DNA from: Candidatus Magnetocorallium paracelense | Lineage (GTDB): Bacteria; Nitrospirota; Thermodesulfovibrionia; Thermodesulfovibrionales; Magnetobacteriaceae | DNA: 64,000 nt | Direction of reading: 5' to 3' | NCBI GenBank assembly: GCA_029001845.1 | Contig: JAREWP010000075.1 | Location: forward strand, 124,001-188,000 | In this document: one piece after another, positions 34,956 through 46,282 of the stretch | How the letters are laid out: each line of letters starts with the position of its first letter | Position numbering within the stretch: the first letter of the stretch is position 1 | The notes under the pieces: model-generated | What the model saw: the letters and a program-made list of their open reading frames with translations, nothing else | Database searches by the model: none | Told to the model about the DNA's origin: nothing | Program-made: the position numbers and the translations under genes

Positions 34956-35225
34956 TGTTTCTTCAATACTCCCGTCCCTTCTCAACCGGTGATTGGATGA
35001 ATGAGACAATGCGTTGCTGTAATGTATTATATACTGTTTAATGCAAAAATTTGTAATTTCACAGGTCTTGAATAAACAAAGCTCTTATCATTTGCATCGT
35101 CAATTGTCAATCGAAAGTCGTCAATTGCAGATAGGCCCTTAGAGTTGTTTTTTGAAGTGCTGTTGTGTTATTTTTCTCAATAAGTGTGCGATATTCTGAA
35201 TTCTATAAAAGAAGGAGTTAGTATA

Positions 35226-35645
35226 ATGAATAAGGAGACCATACAAAAAAAATCTTTTGAAAATAGAATCGAAAGGCTTCCCGACATTCTCGATTTTTTA
35301 ATGGATGTGATGCAGGAACATGGCGTAGGGGAAGAAAAAATGTTCGATATACAAACAGCAGTCGACGAAGCATGCACCAACATTATTCAATACTCCTTTC
35401 CCGACAAAAAAGAGGAGACTATCGAGATATCGTGCAATAAAGAGGAGAACTCATTTATTGTAACCGTAAAGCACAGCGGCGAACCTTTCGACCCCAGGCA
35501 GGTTAAAGACCCCGATCTGGACGAGCAGATCGAGACACGTGAAGTTGGCGGTCTTGGTATCTACTTTATGAGGCAACTTCTTGATGAATTCAGATATGAG
35601 TATAAGGATGGACTGGAAATTTTGGTAATGGTAAAATACATATAA
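35226..35645 (+). CDS. RsbW-type anti-sigma serine kinase
   Basis: 139 residues from ATG 35226, preceded by GAAGGAG; an upstream in-frame start at 35184 lacks a site. GHKL-fold HATPase_c_2 protein: N-box DEACTNIIQYSF, G1-like KHSGEPFDP (His where Asp is usual), and GGLGIYFM. Such proteins bind a sigma factor and phosphorylate a STAS partner. The next gene, 35 bases on, is exactly such a STAS protein, so the two form a partner-switch pair. No sigma factor or phosphatase is adjacent on this strand; the phosphatase operon at 41.4 kb may supply it. Confidence 0.85.
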   Translation: MNKETIQKKSFENRIERLPDILDFLMDVMQEHGVGEEKMFDIQTAVDEACTNIIQYSFPDKKEETIEISCNKEENSFIVTVKHSGEPFDPRQVKDPDLDEQIETREVGGLGIYFMRQLLDEFRYEYKDGLEILVMVKYI

Positions 35646-35680
35646 TTTGAAATAAAATATACATAAAGGGGGCATAGAAA

Positions 35681-36019
35681 TTGGATATTTCAATAAAAGA
35701 GCAGACCAGTGAGATTACAATTGTAGAAATTAGCGGGAGAATCGATGCATCGAACACACCGATGCTTGATGAGGAAATGTCAAAGGTGCTTTCAGAGGGG
35801 AAGACGAAAGTCATAGTGGATCTTTCCAATCTTGCATATATAAGCAGTGCAGGGCTGAGAGTGTTTCTCTCGGCAGTAAAGAAGCTCAAAAAGTCTAACG
35901 GCGATTTAAGACTCTGCGGCCTGAGCCCGAATATTATGAAAATATTTAAACTTGCAGGCTTTAATAAGATTTTTCAAATCTTCGATTCAGAGAAAGAAGC
36001 AGTTGACAGTTTCGCATAA
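35681..36019 (+). CDS. STAS-domain anti-anti-sigma factor
   Basis: 112 residues, starting at TTG 35681 behind AAAGGGGG. A single STAS domain: VEISGRIDASNTPMLDEEM, then YISSAGLRVFLSAVKKL. The ISSAG motif replaces the classic DSSG; the serine that RsbW-type kinases phosphorylate is still present (S56). In the non-phosphorylated state it should bind the RsbW-like kinase encoded just upstream and release its target. A GH57-like gene starts 29 bases later and may be in the same transcript. Confidence 0.85.
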   Translation: MDISIKEQTSEITIVEISGRIDASNTPMLDEEMSKVLSEGKTKVIVDLSNLAYISSAGLRVFLSAVKKLKKSNGDLRLCGLSPNIMKIFKLAGFNKIFQIFDSEKEAVDSFA

Positions 36020-36048: not shown

Positions 36049-37512
36049 ATGGTGACACTTGAGGAATACAGCAATGATATACCCAATATATCGGGTTCCG
36101 AAAAGCTCATAGAGAAAGTGATAAATGACAGTAGAGACAAGCCTGTTTTTTTGCACGAAGGCGGGATAAACTTTGATCAAGTAAAAAGCGCATGCGCCAT
36201 AGCCTTGCACATGCAACAACCACTGATTCCCGCCGGCGGCCATGAACTTCAGACTGCGGGAATTATCAGCAATCTTAAATTTATGATGGATAACCAACAC
36301 ATTCACGATTATCATAATGCTTCTCAGTTTCACTGGTGCTACAAACGAATGGGGGAGTATATTCCCCAGCTGATTCATGATGGGAAACAGCCCAGAATTA
36401 TGCTCGAATACTCTGGAGTCCTCTTTCACGGATTAAGAAATATGGGTTTAAACGATATCATAGACAGCCTCAAAACCATTACATGCGACAGGAATTACAG
36501 GCGCGCAGTAGAATGGCTCGGTTGTCCCTGGGGGCATGCCGTTGCTCCTTCGACTCCTGTACAGGATTACATATTACATGTAAAGGCGTGGCAGCATCAC
36601 TTTGCAGCAATTTTCGGCACAGAGGCATTGAGCAGAGTAAAAGGTTTCTCCCCCTCCGAAATGGCCCTTCCCAATCACCCTGATATAGCCTTCGAATTTG
36701 TAAAAACCCTTAAAAATTGCGGCTACACATGGGTTTTGGTTCAGGAACATTCCGTTGAACAACCGGAAAACGGTTACGGGCCTGAGCGAAAACATATTCC
36801 CCATCTGCTTAAATGTACGAATTCTTCAGGAGAAAGCGCAAGTATTGTCGCTGTTATAAAGACTCAGGGAAGCGATACGAAACTTGTCGCCCAGATGCAG
36901 CCTTATTATGAGGCAAAGGGGCTGTCAAGGTGGGAATTGGGAGGACAGCAGCTCCCGCCCGTTGTTACGCAGATATCGGATGGAGAGAACGGAGGAGTAA
37001 TGATTAATGAGTTTCCTGCGAAGTACTTTGAGGTTTGTTCTGAGGCAACCGGATCGGAAACTCCATTGATGAATATAACTGAATATTTGGAACATCTTTT
37101 TACAGCAGGAATCGAAGAAAACGATTTACCTCTTTTACAACCTGTTATGCAAAAACGTATATGGGATCGCTTTGCACCTGGCGATGAGCCGGAAAAAATG
37201 GAAAAGACAATAGAGGAGTTGAAAAAAGAAGGCCACGGCTTTCATATGGAAGGCGGAAGCTGGACCAACAATATATCCTGGGTCAAAGGTTACGAGGATG
37301 TACTGGGTCCCATGGAAAAACTCAGTTCTCTGTTCTACGAGAAGGTCGTTAAGCCTGGTATATCGACAGATGAATACAGGTTTAAAAACGCACTTTTTCA
37401 CCTTCTGGCTTCTCAAACCAGTTGTTATCGCTACTGGGGGCAGGGAACATGGCCCGAATATGGCAAAGAAATATGCCGCAGAGCCAATGACATCCTGACG
37501 TACGATTTTTAG
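36049..37512 (+). CDS. Glycoside hydrolase family 57-like protein
   Basis: 487 residues, no signal peptide. The (beta/alpha)7-type N-terminal half has RIMLEYSGVLFHGLRNM, GCPWGHAVAPSTP and GFSPSEMALPNHPDIA. The last matches the GH57 pattern W-x-P/S-E, giving E204 as the likely nucleophile. WVLVQEHSVEQPENGYGPER lies where the general acid region is expected. Characterised members act on alpha-glucans (amylases, branching enzymes); this subfamily is uncharacterised as far as I can tell. An AGAGG site precedes the ATG. A perfect 13-bp-stem hairpin immediately after the stop may mark the transcript end. Confidence 0.68.
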   Translation: MVTLEEYSNDIPNISGSEKLIEKVINDSRDKPVFLHEGGINFDQVKSACAIALHMQQPLIPAGGHELQTAGIISNLKFMMDNQHIHDYHNASQFHWCYKRMGEYIPQLIHDGKQPRIMLEYSGVLFHGLRNMGLNDIIDSLKTITCDRNYRRAVEWLGCPWGHAVAPSTPVQDYILHVKAWQHHFAAIFGTEALSRVKGFSPSEMALPNHPDIAFEFVKTLKNCGYTWVLVQEHSVEQPENGYGPERKHIPHLLKCTNSSGESASIVAVIKTQGSDTKLVAQMQPYYEAKGLSRWELGGQQLPPVVTQISDGENGGVMINEFPAKYFEVCSEATGSETPLMNITEYLEHLFTAGIEENDLPLLQPVMQKRIWDRFAPGDEPEKMEKTIEELKKEGHGFHMEGGSWTNNISWVKGYEDVLGPMEKLSSLFYEKVVKPGISTDEYRFKNALFHLLASQTSCYRYWGQGTWPEYGKEICRRANDILTYDF

Positions 37513-37646: not shown

Positions 37647-38435
37647 TCAGGAATTTCCCGTTATTGTTTTAAGATAATCTCCCGGAGCAAGAGAGTCGTC
37701 AGGGGGGCGTCTGGCCAGGAAGGAGACGATTTGAGGATCGTCTGACATCTTTAGTTCATCCATCGTTCCTGTAAATACGATTTCGCCTCTGTTTAACATG
37801 ACTGCATAATCGGCGATAATATGTATGCTTGGCAGTTCGTGAGTAACCACAACGATCGTTATTTTAAATACCTTTTTCAATCTTACAATCAGCTCATCCA
37901 ACCCTGCCGCAGTAACGGGATCGAGACCGGCGGAAGGTTCGTCAAGAAAGAGCAGATCGGGGTCCAGAGCCATTGCTCTGGCTATGCCGGCTCTCTTTTT
38001 CATACCTCCCGACAGTTGTGAGGGATATAACCCGCCTGAACCGGAAAGCCCTACGAGATCGAGTTTCATCCTGACCATGATATCGATAGTGGAACCCTGC
38101 AGTTTTGTATGTTCCGTTACAGGCAACGCCACATTATCGGATACAGTCAGGGAGTTCAATAAGGCGGCGCCCTGAAAGAGCACTCCCATCTTTTTTCTCA
38201 CATCGATCATTTCAATTTCGCTTAAGGATGTGATATCCCGTTCATTTATAAAAATATTTCCCTTTGTCGGTTTCAGGAGCCCGATAATATGCCTTAAGAG
38301 AGTACTTTTACCGGATCCGCTTCCTCCCAGTATCACTGTAGTCATACCGCGAGGGATAGAGAATGTTACGTTTTTCAATATCTCCCTGGTACCGTAATGG
38401 GTAACCAGTCCTTTCACTTCAATTGCTTTTTCCAT
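37647..38435 (-). CDS. mlaF: Mla-type lipid ABC transporter ATPase
   Basis: 262 residues from ATG 38435, which starts one base after the MlaE stop; the longer frame to 38483 would lie inside mlaE. IEVKGLVTHYG start, Walker A GGSGSGKSTLLRHI, Q-loop GVLFQGAAL, signature LSGGMKKRAGIARA and Walker B LLFLDEPSAGLDPVTA. The LSGGM signature and FQGAALL/SLTV loop are typical of MlaF. It powers phospholipid movement between inner and outer membranes together with MlaE. The MCE protein MlaD, usually next, is not seen downstream; the plus-strand repeat at 37.5 kb follows, so the rest of the pathway must be elsewhere. Confidence 0.88.
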   Translation of the reverse strand: MEKAIEVKGLVTHYGTREILKNVTFSIPRGMTTVILGGSGSGKSTLLRHIIGLLKPTKGNIFINERDITSLSEIEMIDVRKKMGVLFQGAALLNSLTVSDNVALPVTEHTKLQGSTIDIMVRMKLDLVGLSGSGGLYPSQLSGGMKKRAGIARAMALDPDLLFLDEPSAGLDPVTAAGLDELIVRLKKVFKITIVVVTHELPSIHIIADYAVMLNRGEIVFTGTMDELKMSDDPQIVSFLARRPPDDSLAPGDYLKTITGNS

Positions 38436-38436
38436 A

Positions 38437-39243
38437 TCAGGTAAAAAAGAAAAACAGGATAGTAAAAAAGAGATCAAATACAATGACCAGTATTATAGAG
38501 GCAACTACGGCGGCAGTTGTCCGCTTCCCCACATCTTCAGCTCCCCCCTCCACTCTGAGACCCTGATATACGCCTACCAGGGTGATCACTATGCCAAAGG
38601 CAAGGGCTTTTACCAGACCTGTGAAGATATCCTGTATGGCAAGGGAGTTAATGGTTTGTTCTATATAGGCCCCGGGGCTTAGTCCAAGCATGGTTGACGC
38701 AAGGATCGTTCCGCCTGTTATGCCGGAAAAATCGGCGATAAGCGTCAAGGCGGGCATCATAATCATAAGAGCGATCAGTTTAGGAACAATGAGATAGCGA
38801 ATCGGGTTTATGCCCATTGTGACCAGTGCGTCGATTTCTTCTGCCGCCTTCATTGAGCCGATCTCGGCGGCAAAGGCCGAACCGCTTCTGCCCGATACGA
38901 GTACTGCCGTCAGAATGGGGCCAAGCTCTCTTGTTAAGGATATGCCTACCAGGTCCGCTACATATATAAGGGCTCCAAACTTCTTTAACTGATAAGCCGC
39001 CTGAAGAGCCAGAATGACACCGACAAAAAAGGATATAAGCGAGACGATGGGCACGGAATTATATCCTGTGCGAACCATTTCGACTATGCTTGCCCTTATT
39101 CTCGGCGGCCTTCCCGTTAGGGGGGAGATAAATGTCTGGTAAAAGACGCTGTTTATAAGTACGGATATCGTGTTTAAACTGTCAAGCAGGGAGAGAAAGG
39201 TTTTACCGGTATAGCCGAAAATTTCCTTAACAGGCAACGGCAT
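38437..39243 (-). CDS. mlaE: Mla-type lipid ABC transporter permease
   Basis: About 268 residues from ATG 39243 (MPLPVKEIFGYTG); an ATG at 39279 would extend the overlap with the STAS gene. About five membrane segments; the family core RELGPILTAVLVSGRSGSAFAAEIGSM is present, as are EEIDAL and YLIVPKLIA. It forms the transmembrane part of the phospholipid transporter. The start overlaps the end of the STAS gene by 17 bases and the stop is one base from mlaF, so the three products are translationally coupled and probably made in fixed ratio. Confidence 0.9.
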   Translation of the reverse strand: MPLPVKEIFGYTGKTFLSLLDSLNTISVLINSVFYQTFISPLTGRPPRIRASIVEMVRTGYNSVPIVSLISFFVGVILALQAAYQLKKFGALIYVADLVGISLTRELGPILTAVLVSGRSGSAFAAEIGSMKAAEEIDALVTMGINPIRYLIVPKLIALMIMMPALTLIADFSGITGGTILASTMLGLSPGAYIEQTINSLAIQDIFTGLVKALAFGIVITLVGVYQGLRVEGGAEDVGKRTTAAVVASIILVIVFDLFFTILFFFFT

Positions 39244-39562
39244 TGTCGACACTTTCATAGATATCGAAAACACTGTCAAGTCTTGCGAACCTGAATATCT
39301 CCATCACACTGTCGGGTATGCCGGTAAGCCTGAGAGCGCCACCATATTCCATCATACTCTTTAGCACTTCTACGAATGTGGCTATGCCGGAACTGTCTAT
39401 ATATGAGACTCCCCCAAAATCTACAATAAGAGGTGTTATCTTTCGATCCACAAGTTTCATTAACTCCTTTCTCAGTACAGGAGAAGAGTGCATATCGATC
39501 TCACCTGAGAGGTAAAATGCCTTTTTGTCATTTTTTGTTACTGCTTCCAGTCCGATATTCAT
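39227..39562 (-). CDS. STAS-domain protein, MlaB-like / anti-anti-sigma
   Basis: 111 residues with a clear GAGGAG site before the ATG. A single STAS domain: LSGEIDMHSSPVLRKEL, IVDFGGVSYIDSSGIATFVE; the DSSG at residues 56-59 keeps the full phosphorylation motif. By position, overlapping mlaE, it should be the MlaB subunit that regulates the transporter ATPase. By company, downstream of an RsbW-like kinase and an RsbU-like phosphatase, it should be a phospho-switch partner. Both roles may be combined: phosphorylation of this protein could control lipid transport. Confidence 0.87.
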   Translation of the reverse strand: MNIGLEAVTKNDKKAFYLSGEIDMHSSPVLRKELMKLVDRKITPLIVDFGGVSYIDSSGIATFVEVLKSMMEYGGALRLTGIPDSVMEIFRFARLDSVFDIYESVDNAVAC

Positions 39563-39610
39563 TTTTTTGCTCCTCTGTTCCGTAAGTTTTCATATCTTCA
39601 ACTCAATACC

Positions 39611-39646
39611 ATTAACTTAAGGGGTGCTTTGCTCCTTAAGTTAATG
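39611..39646. repeat. Perfect 12-bp-stem hairpin between RsbW-like and STAS genes
   Basis: ATTAACTTAAGG and CCTTAAGTTAAT flank GGTGCTTTGCT. The right arm and following GACATTG are shared with the region upstream of rne (~30584-30602), so it is a repeat as well as a hairpin. It sits inside the operon and may lower expression of the Mla genes relative to the signalling genes. Confidence 0.65.
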
Positions 39647-39664
39647 ACATTGATCTTCAACTTA

Positions 39665-40078
39665 TTAAGAACTTACCCTGTTTTTTATTAATATAAGTCT
39701 GTTACCCTCTTTTCTTTCACTGTCAAAATCGAAGACATCGAAGGTGCGTTTAACCAGATGTACGCCAAGCCCGCCTGGTCTCAAATCTTCAAAGTCCCTG
39801 CCGCGAACCTTTTCGGGCTCTGTTTTCGTCCCATTATCTTCGATTATGACAAGGAATTCGGAATCTGTTATATTAAATTTTAAAGTTATCTCGCCCTCTG
39901 TGTCTCCTCCGTATGCATGGCGTATAACGTTTGTGCATGCCTCTGTGAGAGCGACTTTAATCTCGTTTATTATAACATCGGAAATTTCAAAAATCTCGCC
40001 CAATTTTTCTATTACAGCCCTTAGCATTGTAAGATATTGGGGATGAGAAGGAATCGTAAGAATCGTCGAATACTTCAT
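39665..40078 (-). CDS. RsbW-type anti-sigma serine kinase, second
   Basis: 137 residues, HATPase_c_2 fold: N-box ALTEACTNVIRHAYGG, G1 IIEDNGTKTEPE and lid/G2 PGGLGVHLVKR. Unlike the copy at 35.2 kb it keeps the DNG aspartate, so ATP binding and kinase activity are likely. It lies 21 bases after the PP2C phosphatase gene and ~100 bases before the STAS gene on the same strand, the classical phosphatase-kinase-antagonist set. No sigma factor gene is adjacent, so its target may not be a sigma factor. Confidence 0.86.
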   Translation of the reverse strand: MKYSTILTIPSHPQYLTMLRAVIEKLGEIFEISDVIINEIKVALTEACTNVIRHAYGGDTEGEITLKFNITDSEFLVIIEDNGTKTEPEKVRGRDFEDLRPGGLGVHLVKRTFDVFDFDSERKEGNRLILIKNRVSS

Positions 40079-40099
40079 TTTCTAAAAATGATAAAAGAC

Positions 40100-41422
40100 C
40101 TAAACAGCCAATCTCCTTAATTCCAATAAAGTCAGGTCGTCAGCTTTCACTGCTCCCATAGAAAATTCGTTAATATAACTAAAAATTCCGTCTATAATGT
40201 CTTCGTCATATCTGTGGTCTCTGACATATTTGACAAAGCCGTCGAAGCCAAGCCTGAGCCCCTTTGCATTTAAAGCATCGAAAACGCCGTCAGTAAAAAA
40301 GAGCATCTTCTCTCCGATGCCGAGAGATATATTACTTGGAGGGTAAGGGGAGGGAAAAGTGCCAAGGGGAAGCCCTGAAGGAATTTCCACGACTTTGACT
40401 TCATCGGATGTAAAGTGAAGAAATGGCGGATGACCTGCCGAAGAGAGTTGCAGCTCTCCTGTATGCACATCGATTAACATATGCAAAGCTGTGAGGAACA
40501 TTCCTCTCGGTGCGTTTGAAAGAAGTCCGTTAAGGCGTTTGAGCATTACCTCTGTGGAATCGGTACGAGAGGCCAGCCATCTGAAATCGCCGAGGGCTTT
40601 GACCATATATAATGCAGCAGATACGCCCTTACCCGAAACATCGCCGATCAATGCACTTACTTTGTCCCCTTCAGGCTCCAGTATATCGTATATGTCGCCT
40701 CCGATTTCAGAGGCCGATATATTAAAGGCCGTTATTTTTATGCCTCCTCTTTCATATACAGAAGATTCAGGCAGAAAATTTCTTAAGAGAGCCATCGCAA
40801 TGTCGATTCCAAGTTTAAGGCGTTCCCTTTCAGAGGATTCCCGATAGAGGGTTTTTTCATGAAACATAGCGTTTTCTATTGCAATGGCAGCGTGTTTTGA
40901 CAGTATATTGAGCAATTCCAGGTCGGACTCTTCAAAACTCTCTTTCTCCTGTGGATTCAGCACTTCGATTACCCCTGTAAAACCTCTTTCGCCAATCATG
41001 GGAGAGGCGACCAGACTCCTTGACGGTACGCCGGCGATCCTGTCTGCAATGAGGCAGAGGTTACCTTCCGATTGGGCGTCTTTCACGAGGAGAGGTTTTT
41101 TCGATTGAGCAACCATGCCTGCTATACCCTGACCTATGTCAAGACTCGCCTTTTTTTTGAGAGAGCAAAAAAAGCTGTCCTCCTCTTTGAGCACTTCCGG
41201 TACTTCCAGCATGTTTGAGTCGCTGTTGTACAGAAAGACCAGACATATCTCTCCGTTTAAAGATATCTGAATATTTTCGACAATAGAGGATAGCGCATCA
41301 TTTAAACTCAGGTGTGAAGATATGGAAGACAGTATATCGAATATGGAATCTCCATTAAAGGTCTTTATGGCGATTTCATGGCAATTGCCTTCGGTAATCG
41401 TTGGGTTCGATTTGTGAGTCAT
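40100..41422 (-). CDS. GAF-PP2C (SpoIIE/RsbU-type) serine phosphatase
   Basis: 440 residues, soluble. The first ~190 residues form a GAF sensor (SIVENIQISLNGEICLVFLY, DIGQGIAGMVAQSKKPLLV, LLNILSKHAAIAIENAM). A helical linker leads to a PP2C-like phosphatase at ~220-440 with GGDIYDI, LIGDVSGKGVSAALYM, LSSAGHPPFLHF and FFTDGVFDA, whose acidic residues bind the two metal ions. It should dephosphorylate the STAS protein of the same operon in response to a ligand or redox signal bound by GAF. First gene of the minus-strand set reaching mlaF. Confidence 0.9.
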   Translation of the reverse strand: MTHKSNPTITEGNCHEIAIKTFNGDSIFDILSSISSHLSLNDALSSIVENIQISLNGEICLVFLYNSDSNMLEVPEVLKEEDSFFCSLKKKASLDIGQGIAGMVAQSKKPLLVKDAQSEGNLCLIADRIAGVPSRSLVASPMIGERGFTGVIEVLNPQEKESFEESDLELLNILSKHAAIAIENAMFHEKTLYRESSERERLKLGIDIAMALLRNFLPESSVYERGGIKITAFNISASEIGGDIYDILEPEGDKVSALIGDVSGKGVSAALYMVKALGDFRWLASRTDSTEVMLKRLNGLLSNAPRGMFLTALHMLIDVHTGELQLSSAGHPPFLHFTSDEVKVVEIPSGLPLGTFPSPYPPSNISLGIGEKMLFFTDGVFDALNAKGLRLGFDGFVKYVRDHRYDEDIIDGIFSYINEFSMGAVKADDLTLLELRRLAV

Positions 41423-41734
41423 ATATATTATTATCAGATTTCATGGAACAGTGTCAATCAGGCAAAGCATGGCATGGGCAGCTACATTGGCTGTCCATGC
41501 AAGCTCTCTGTGCAATATTTGCACATCCAATATGGTAAGGTGTGCAATCTTATCTCAGTATTCCTATTTTTTTATTGCCCGAGAATTGATAAAAAGGCCG
41601 GATTTTGGCGCATCGGGGCATAATCTAAAAAGATTATCAACCGGCACGGTATTTGATATATATTTATTAAACACTTTAATTTAAATTAAAACATATAAAT
41701 TATAAAGATCAGAGAATTAAGGAGGTATTATAAA
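41423..41734. promoter_or_regulatory. Divergent promoter region, weak sigma-54-like site
   Basis: About 310 bases between the phosphatase operon and the glycine-rich protein gene, no reading frame of value. On the plus strand 41641-41657 reads CCGGCACGGTATTTGAT, close to TGGCACGN4TTGCW but with GA where the -12 GC should be, so I rate it weak. A stem AATCT/AGATT lies just upstream at 41623-41637. The small-protein start has a strong AAGGAGG site. Confidence 0.35.
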
Positions 41735-42007
41735 ATGGCAACAAACGAATTCGCTAACATGAGTAAGTCAGGAGGAGATTCATCCATTGGTCAGGCCGGC
41801 ATGTCCACAGGGGCAGAAGGCGGGAGCGCTTCAGGTACCGGAGAAGGGGACGTTAACAGCTGGTGGTGGGGTCTTGGCGGAGGTTACGCAGAAGGAACCG
41901 GTTATGCATCTTCCGGAGCCGGCGCTGTCGGTCAAAATGCAATCGGCTCTTCCGGCGGCGGAGTAACTGACAATACAGATATCGATTCTATTAATATTTC
42001 ATCATAG
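41735..42007 (+). CDS. Glycine/serine-rich small protein, unknown
   Basis: 90 residues, about half Gly, Ser, Ala and Thr, with no basic residue after K11, a central NSWWWGLGGGY and an acidic-polar end TDNTDIDSINISS. No signal peptide, membrane helix or known domain is recognised. It is real by signals: AAGGAGG at ideal spacing before ATG, and a perfect 16-bp-stem terminator 45 bases after the stop, so it is a single-gene transcript probably expressed strongly. The composition suggests an unstructured or fibre-like protein, or a secreted/modified peptide precursor; I cannot choose. Confidence 0.7.
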   Translation: MATNEFANMSKSGGDSSIGQAGMSTGAEGGSASGTGEGDVNSWWWGLGGGYAEGTGYASSGAGAVGQNAIGSSGGGVTDNTDIDSINISS

Positions 42008-45577: not shown

Positions 45578-46282
45578 TTGAACTCTCATTCGTTTAGCAG
45601 GAAATGGTTAATAATCCAGTCCGTTATCGGAATTAACTGGTTTATCGTCCTTCTTGCGTTTCCTTACCACCTTTTGATTTATTACATCACCGCCTTTTGG
45701 ATTTTTTTTGCTTTTATCGCTTTAGTAATCAATGGTGGAGGAATAGGAACAGTGGCTGACAAGGTTACATTGATCCGTGTAATCCTTATGGCATTTACCT
45801 GTGTGCATTCTGCTTCGTTTTCTAATCAGAATCCCAATCATGTACCTATAATATTATGCGCTCTTTTTCTTCTTATGGATAAACTGGATGGCTGTTGCGC
45901 GGAAAAATGGGGCGGAAGCGATGCAGGGGCTGTTTACGATATGGAGTCGGACCAGTTTTCAGTTGTCGTTTTGTCTATGTTGGGTTATTTACAGGCAGGC
46001 TTACCTTTTTTTATACTCTTTTTTCCCCTGATCCGCTATGTTTATGTCCTCTTTTCAGAAGCGGTCGGTATTCCGTCAAACGATCCAAAACCGGTAAGAG
46101 GAAACAACACCAGAGGAAAAACGATTTTTTTAGTAATTGCAGCAATTCTTTTTTTTAATCTGATCCCCTCTGTTTCCATGCCAATTAAAATATCTCTCAC
46201 TGCTATGGCTTTAATACTACTGATATGGTCTTTTTCTGCGGACTTTATATTTTTATACAGAAATGTTGTCAAACGAGCATAA
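45578..46282 (+). CDS. CDP-alcohol phosphatidyltransferase-like membrane protein
   Basis: 234 residues, about six membrane helices. The motif is DKLDGCCAEKWGGSDAGAVYDMESD, compared with the family D-x2-D-G-x2-A-R-x8-G-x3-D-x3-D: all four metal aspartates and DG are present, but R is E and the spacer is one residue shorter. Such enzymes transfer a phospho-alcohol group from CDP-lipid or CDP-alcohol. The start is a TTG at 45578, as no ATG lies nearby in frame. The next gene, ~150 bases on, is a phospholipid methyltransferase-like protein, which suggests a lipid head-group pathway. Confidence 0.7.
   Translation: MNSHSFSRKWLIIQSVIGINWFIVLLAFPYHLLIYYITAFWIFFAFIALVINGGGIGTVADKVTLIRVILMAFTCVHSASFSNQNPNHVPIILCALFLLMDKLDGCCAEKWGGSDAGAVYDMESDQFSVVVLSMLGYLQAGLPFFILFFPLIRYVYVLFSEAVGIPSNDPKPVRGNNTRGKTIFLVIAAILFFNLIPSVSMPIKISLTAMALILLIWSFSADFIFLYRNVVKRA

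Follow-up and report, generated by a model that had tools for sequence, protein, structure and literature searches.

The DNA analysed here, a stretch of 64,000 nucleotides from Candidatus Magnetocorallium paracelense (the window), contains an operon that quite probably encodes an Mla-type (MCE-family) lipid ABC transporter with an MlaB-like STAS subunit that is targeted by a co-encoded partner switch, the binding of STAS to MlaF being gated by an RsbW-type kinase and a PP2C phosphatase. There is also a reasonable likelihood that the assembly of this lipid-transport ABC is switched directly, through the STAS protein, by two dedicated enzymes, the serine kinase and the phosphatase, which would make these the first candidate enzymes for MlaB phosphoregulation. 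The gene content and order, their conservation, the intact catalytic and acceptor residues, and an MlaF extension of the MlaB-gripping type were all observed, and involve the following features.

41430-41457, minus strand: promoter-like site TTGACA-16-GATAAT, 5' of the operon (phosphatase gene), with 11 of 12 consensus matches
40100-41422, minus strand: GAF-PP2C (SpoIIE/RsbU-type) serine phosphatase, 440 aa (Pfam SpoIIE, 2.1e-38, and GAF)
39665-40078, minus strand: RsbW/SpoIIAB-type serine kinase, 137 aa (Pfam HATPase_c_2, 4.1e-24)
39590-39664, no strand: palindromic dispersed repeat (MITE/REP-like) between rsbW and the STAS gene, outside the ancestral operon (20-bp hairpin, z -4.6)
39227-39562, minus strand: STAS protein, 111 aa, an RsbV-like sequence in the MlaB position, with candidate phosphosite Ser57 (Pfam STAS, 8.9e-22)
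38437-39279, minus strand: MlaE permease (Pfam MlaE, 9.6e-80; TIGR00056 over its cut-off)
37647-38435, minus strand: MlaF ATPase, 262 aa (nearest PDB chains are MlaF structures)
~37650-37709, minus strand: C-terminal extension of MlaF, of the MlaB-contacting type (...LAPGDYLKTITGNS), from the extension alignment

The genes for the GAF-PP2C phosphatase, the RsbW-like kinase, STAS, MlaE and MlaF are read in this order along the minus strand (41422 to 37647). This single-strand order, the overlap of the STAS gene with mlaE, and the spacing of one base between the end of mlaE and the ATG of mlaF had been claimed by a sequence-only reading of the window and were all confirmed on the sequence. The overlap amounts to 17 nt with the mlaE ATG at 39243, probably the true start judging from an alignment of relatives, and to 53 nt with the TTG at 39279. 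The rsbW and STAS genes are separated by 102 nt containing the palindrome, and in most relatives they overlap or nearly touch. In the source genome (assembly size 6.0 Mb), the palindrome had 66 matches at approximately 40 or more places, and in some copies the two arms were spaced by about 110 bp, suggesting a MITE that has a solo-hairpin form. A function of this hairpin as a terminator was set aside, as it is a dispersed repeat without a T-run. The promoter-like site is a consensus match only, the count of such sites in the region not being above that in shuffled sequences. Divergent from the operon, a small ORF (41735-42007, plus strand) encodes a Gly/Ser-rich product of 90 aa and is preceded by a strong ribosome-binding site (aaggaggtattataaaATG). 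A gene of the CDP-alcohol phosphatidyltransferase family, involved in phospholipid synthesis, is located about 4 kb from the operon (45578-46282, plus strand).

Three of the genes constitute a candidate partner-switching module of the RsbU/RsbW/RsbV type, in that a PP2C phosphatase, a GHKL serine kinase and a STAS antagonist are encoded together, with intact catalytic motifs and a D-S-[ST]-G loop that has the acceptor-type serine. The phosphatase, which matched Rv1364c, a response-regulator phosphatase and the SpoIIE phosphatase in the PDB, kept all metal-binding motifs (GGDxxD, DVSGKG, TDG and DDLT) in a motif survey. Similarly, the kinase, with RsbW (6m36_A) as top PDB match, retained E46 and N50 of the N-box, D81 and GGLG, its glycine motifs being as in RsbW and SpoIIAB; E46, N50, G83, G102, G103 and G105 were invariant in the kinase alignment. 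Among 59 non-redundant kinase-linked loci, the kinase N-box and the STAS motif DSS[GA] were present in 59 each and the PP2C motifs in 56 to 58, the loci without the full PP2C motifs corresponding to contig-edge, short or atypical ORFs. The DSSG reported for the STAS protein of the window was indeed present, and its Ser57 (codon 39394-39392) aligned with the serine of the DS[ST]G motif in RsbV and in SpoIIAA, the residue that is phosphorylated in these proteins. A second RsbW-STAS pair (35184-36019, plus strand), with ISSAG in place of DSSG, was found approximately 3 kb from the operon STAS gene and might cross-talk with it. This pair is followed by a gene of 487 aa (36049-37512) without Pfam match, the product of which presumably resembles glutamate-cysteine ligase. 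A third RsbW-STAS pair of the genome (L239:5335-6175, contig C9) scored only about 56 bits against the operon families.

The sequence-only reading would have been undermined by a neighbourhood unique to this genome. This is not the case, as the linkage recurs in dozens of genomes from several families, even where identity is as low as 33-44%. In a scan of named genomes, phosphatase, kinase, STAS and MlaE occurred in order at 37 of the 38 MlaE loci with at least 60% identity. In a phylum-wide sweep of 296 Nitrospirota genomes, the kinase, and with it this ordered set, was found at the locus in 30 of the 33 genomes of the main MlaE clade (above 447 bits), the remaining three belonging to a single genus (g3). 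The set was likewise present in genome G070 (MlaE, 387 bits) and in bacterium L099, whose MlaE is 49% identical to that of the window. In addition, eight genomes of family f23 carried a second, deeply diverged version, in which MlaE, STAS and RsbW were 38-41%, 33-41% and 33-38% identical, respectively, to those of the window (four compared). Gene order was retained in f23 and L099 at about 30-50% identity, and MlaE paralogues of f23 having no STAS gene had no kinase gene either. Across the 59 non-redundant loci, the order phosphatase-kinase-STAS was strict and overlaps were frequent. In most relatives, MlaE is followed by MlaF and an MCE (MlaD) protein, and often by a PqiC-like lipoprotein; a further downstream gene was common to 26 loci, and the example tested encodes a PF03886 PqiC-like lipoprotein. 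In the source genome, an MCE gene (C38:26149-27099), closest to the operon MCE genes of the relatives, and a PqiC-like lipoprotein gene (near C38:26 kb) are situated about 135 kb from the operon, outside the window; the MCE (MlaD) component is thus encoded, both genes having moved elsewhere on the contig.

That the STAS protein represents an MlaB-type subunit, as had been proposed, is supported by three lines of evidence, namely its place beside mlaE, the extension of MlaF and a structure match. Its position at mlaE is fixed with or without a kinase. Indeed, STAS adjoins mlaE without an adjacent kinase gene in genus g3, Acidobacteriota and family f33, and other phyla have it as a fusion with MlaE; on a quick MlaE tree with some forks open, the STAS-bearing systems fell in one half. 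As to structure, profile comparison gave RsbV of the RsbW-RsbV complex (6m36_B) as top match, with weaker MlaB matches. The AlphaFold2 model (pLDDT 92.7) displayed an RsbV/TM1442-like fold, with VIA Z of 18-19 and rmsd of 1.2-1.8 over 100-111 residues for structures of that type, versus Z of about 13 and rmsd of 2.0 over 97 residues for MlaB chains. The protein scored 25.6 bits against NCBIfam MlaB (NF033618), of which the cut-off is 90. Furthermore, the MlaB of E. coli is short, without the additional (fifth) strand and the final helix of the RsbV type (PMC7367683). The model possesses a strand at 100-102 and a helix at 105-110 and so departs from this short form; its longer, RsbV-type C-terminus argues against the MlaB-type reading. 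In such STAS proteins, the final helix is packed against the sheet face, whereas MlaF is bound by the helical face on the opposite side (PMC7367683).

The MlaE permease is accompanied by an MlaF ATPase, as in Mla-type (MCE) ABC transporters, and the free-standing STAS protein is paired with an MlaF having a C-terminal extension. In E. coli, Y261, L265 and L266 of this extension lie between MlaB and MlaF and contact MlaB (PMC7367683). For the MlaF of the window, a C-terminal helix (251-259) was predicted with low confidence. Using a simple regular expression as criterion, by which 25 rows were not anchorable, the extension was detected in all scored MlaFs of systems with a free-standing STAS protein (58/58), comprising 49/49 kinase-linked and 9/9 STAS-only systems. 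It occurred in one of the 14 scored MlaFs without free-standing STAS, at a locus starting at a contig edge, and in none of the 17 MlaFs of systems with fused or long N-termini. By eye, most of the unanchored STAS-less rows ended soon after the NBD. The MlaF tails of family f23 (DGPISF..SS.DYREDLL) closely resemble the E. coli sequence DGPVPFRYPAGDYHADLL. The two paralogous MlaFs of the source genome, neither of them next to STAS, end in a different C-terminal domain. In these paralogues (L051:10242-11525, contig C2, and L052:7554-8810, contig C75), this long extra domain appears by eye to be GGDEF-like and degenerate-GGDEF-like, respectively, so that a further signalling domain may be linked to those transporters.

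Genus g3 provides a natural kinase-loss control. In this genus (L043-L045 and L049), the kinase and phosphatase genes are gone from the operon and mlaF is located elsewhere, with STAS still overlapping mlaE; the best RsbW match is only about 30% identical. On the MlaE tree, g3 branches from within the kinase-linked clade, so that its lack of the kinase is a loss. The MlaF encoded elsewhere bears the extension. At equal MlaE distance, STAS identity was 43.7% in g3 versus 49.2% for kinase-linked STAS, reflecting faster drift, and Y54 (3/3) and D23 (2/3) were changed, both being invariant in 28/28 kinase-linked STAS proteins. Drift and changes of this kind would be expected once STAS is released from a kinase interface; they stem from one event, with positions picked post hoc. 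Ser57 was retained. Consequently, serine conservation as such was rejected as proof of phosphorylation, the serine outliving the loss of the kinase, and Ser57 probably has an additional role, as T52 does in E. coli.

The proposed mechanism would be as follows. Unphosphorylated STAS would bind MlaF via its helical face and be held by the MlaF C-terminal extension, giving an assembled, active transporter. RsbW would phosphorylate Ser57, at the centre of this face, and thereby release STAS from MlaF and lower transport; it may also bind and hold unphosphorylated STAS. A cytoplasmic signal sensed by the GAF domain would activate the GAF-PP2C phosphatase, which would remove the phosphate and restore transport. 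As the Ser57 face would serve both partners, binding of RsbW and MlaF to STAS would be mutually exclusive. In E. coli MlaB, T52 occupies an almost central position in the interface with MlaF, to which the T52E variant binds more weakly (PMC7367683). The T52A variant, by contrast, abolishes ATPase activity with binding persisting (PMC5016091), indicating that this residue may serve something other than phosphorylation. Retention of the Ser/Thr in Acidobacteriota systems without an adjacent kinase is a further point against the mechanism. Of the phospho-switched lipid transport originally claimed, the conserved linkage, the phosphosite and both intact enzymes thus stood, whereas phosphorylation of STAS by RsbW, the binding partners (STAS with MlaF), the signal and the direction of the control are what we infer from them.

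The transporter could also act as a sensor: STAS would be held by MlaF, and its release or its phosphorylation state would report lipid transport to RsbW, which would in turn control a sigma factor or some other target elsewhere. In Bacillus, RsbW and SpoIIAB act as anti-sigma factors. The kinase is RsbW-like and STAS is RsbV-like, and the structural links of the main explanation fit such a sensor equally. Yet, clustering of the genes flanking the operon recognised the PqiC-like lipoprotein as sole conserved gene, the rest being mostly antisense ORFs, and no sigma factor was seen among them; moreover, g3 keeps STAS with mlaE after kinase loss, indicating that STAS serves the transporter without the switch. 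The sensor is considered unlikely.

It is quite improbable that the STAS protein is an ordinary structural MlaB with a serine for folding or ATPase stimulation, the co-transcribed kinase and phosphatase targeting another STAS protein. Persistence of the serine without a kinase and the T52A effect in E. coli (PMC5016091) would agree with this, as would the other free-standing STAS genes of the genome, including that of the nearby second RsbW-STAS pair. However, two of these other STAS genes have RsbW neighbours of their own (at 35184 and on contig C9), the strict gene order and frequent overlaps at the 59 loci tie the enzymes to the operon STAS, and Y54 is invariant with the kinase and altered where it was lost. 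Control of the transcription of the transporter operon by the trio through an unlinked sigma factor, with STAS never touching MlaF, would be in line with the classical action of partner switches on transcription (established knowledge; reviewed in PMC8256260), but is very improbable, given that in several phyla STAS is found next to mlaE whether or not a kinase is present, that other phyla have STAS domains fused to MlaE, and that the MlaF extension tracks free-standing STAS.

The proposed partner-switched transporter resembles the E. coli MlaFEDB system in its MlaE and MlaF families, its STAS subunit, the C-terminal extension of MlaF and the Ser/Thr at the T52 position. It differs in that the operon encodes RsbW and PP2C proteins, no MlaB kinase or phosphatase being known in E. 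coli, and in its longer, RsbV-like STAS. With RsbU/RsbW/RsbV of sigma B and SpoIIE/SpoIIAB/SpoIIAA, it shares the PP2C phosphatase, the GHKL kinase and the STAS protein with acceptor serine, the best PDB matches being RsbW and RsbV/TM1442; unlike in those switches, no sigma factor gene was seen in the operon and the apparent output is a membrane transporter. A partner switch with a non-sigma output, the diguanylate cyclase SiaD, occurs in SiaABC(D) of Pseudomonas aeruginosa, whereas the output here is an ABC transporter and the trio is located inside the transporter operon. The MCE protein and PF03886 PqiC-like lipoprotein at the end of the operon of the relatives recall Mla-Pqi hybrid MCE systems, such as Brucella Mpc (PMC12436622), from which the present operon differs by including kinase and phosphatase genes. 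A search of the open-access literature retrieved no paper joining a partner switch (RsbW, SpoIIE) to MlaE, MlaB or an Mla transporter. Hence, each component is of a known kind, and the link between partner switch and Mla transporter is the new part, within the open-access literature searched.

Studies of the E. coli Mla system proposed phosphoregulation of MlaB at T52, naming no enzyme (PMC5016091, PMC7367683). Here, enzymes of the appropriate kinase and phosphatase families are encoded beside the STAS subunit in dozens of genomes and offer defined candidate enzymes and substrates for such regulation. If true, membrane transport would join transcription and second messengers as an output of partner switching, and lipid trafficking between membranes would be switched post-translationally.
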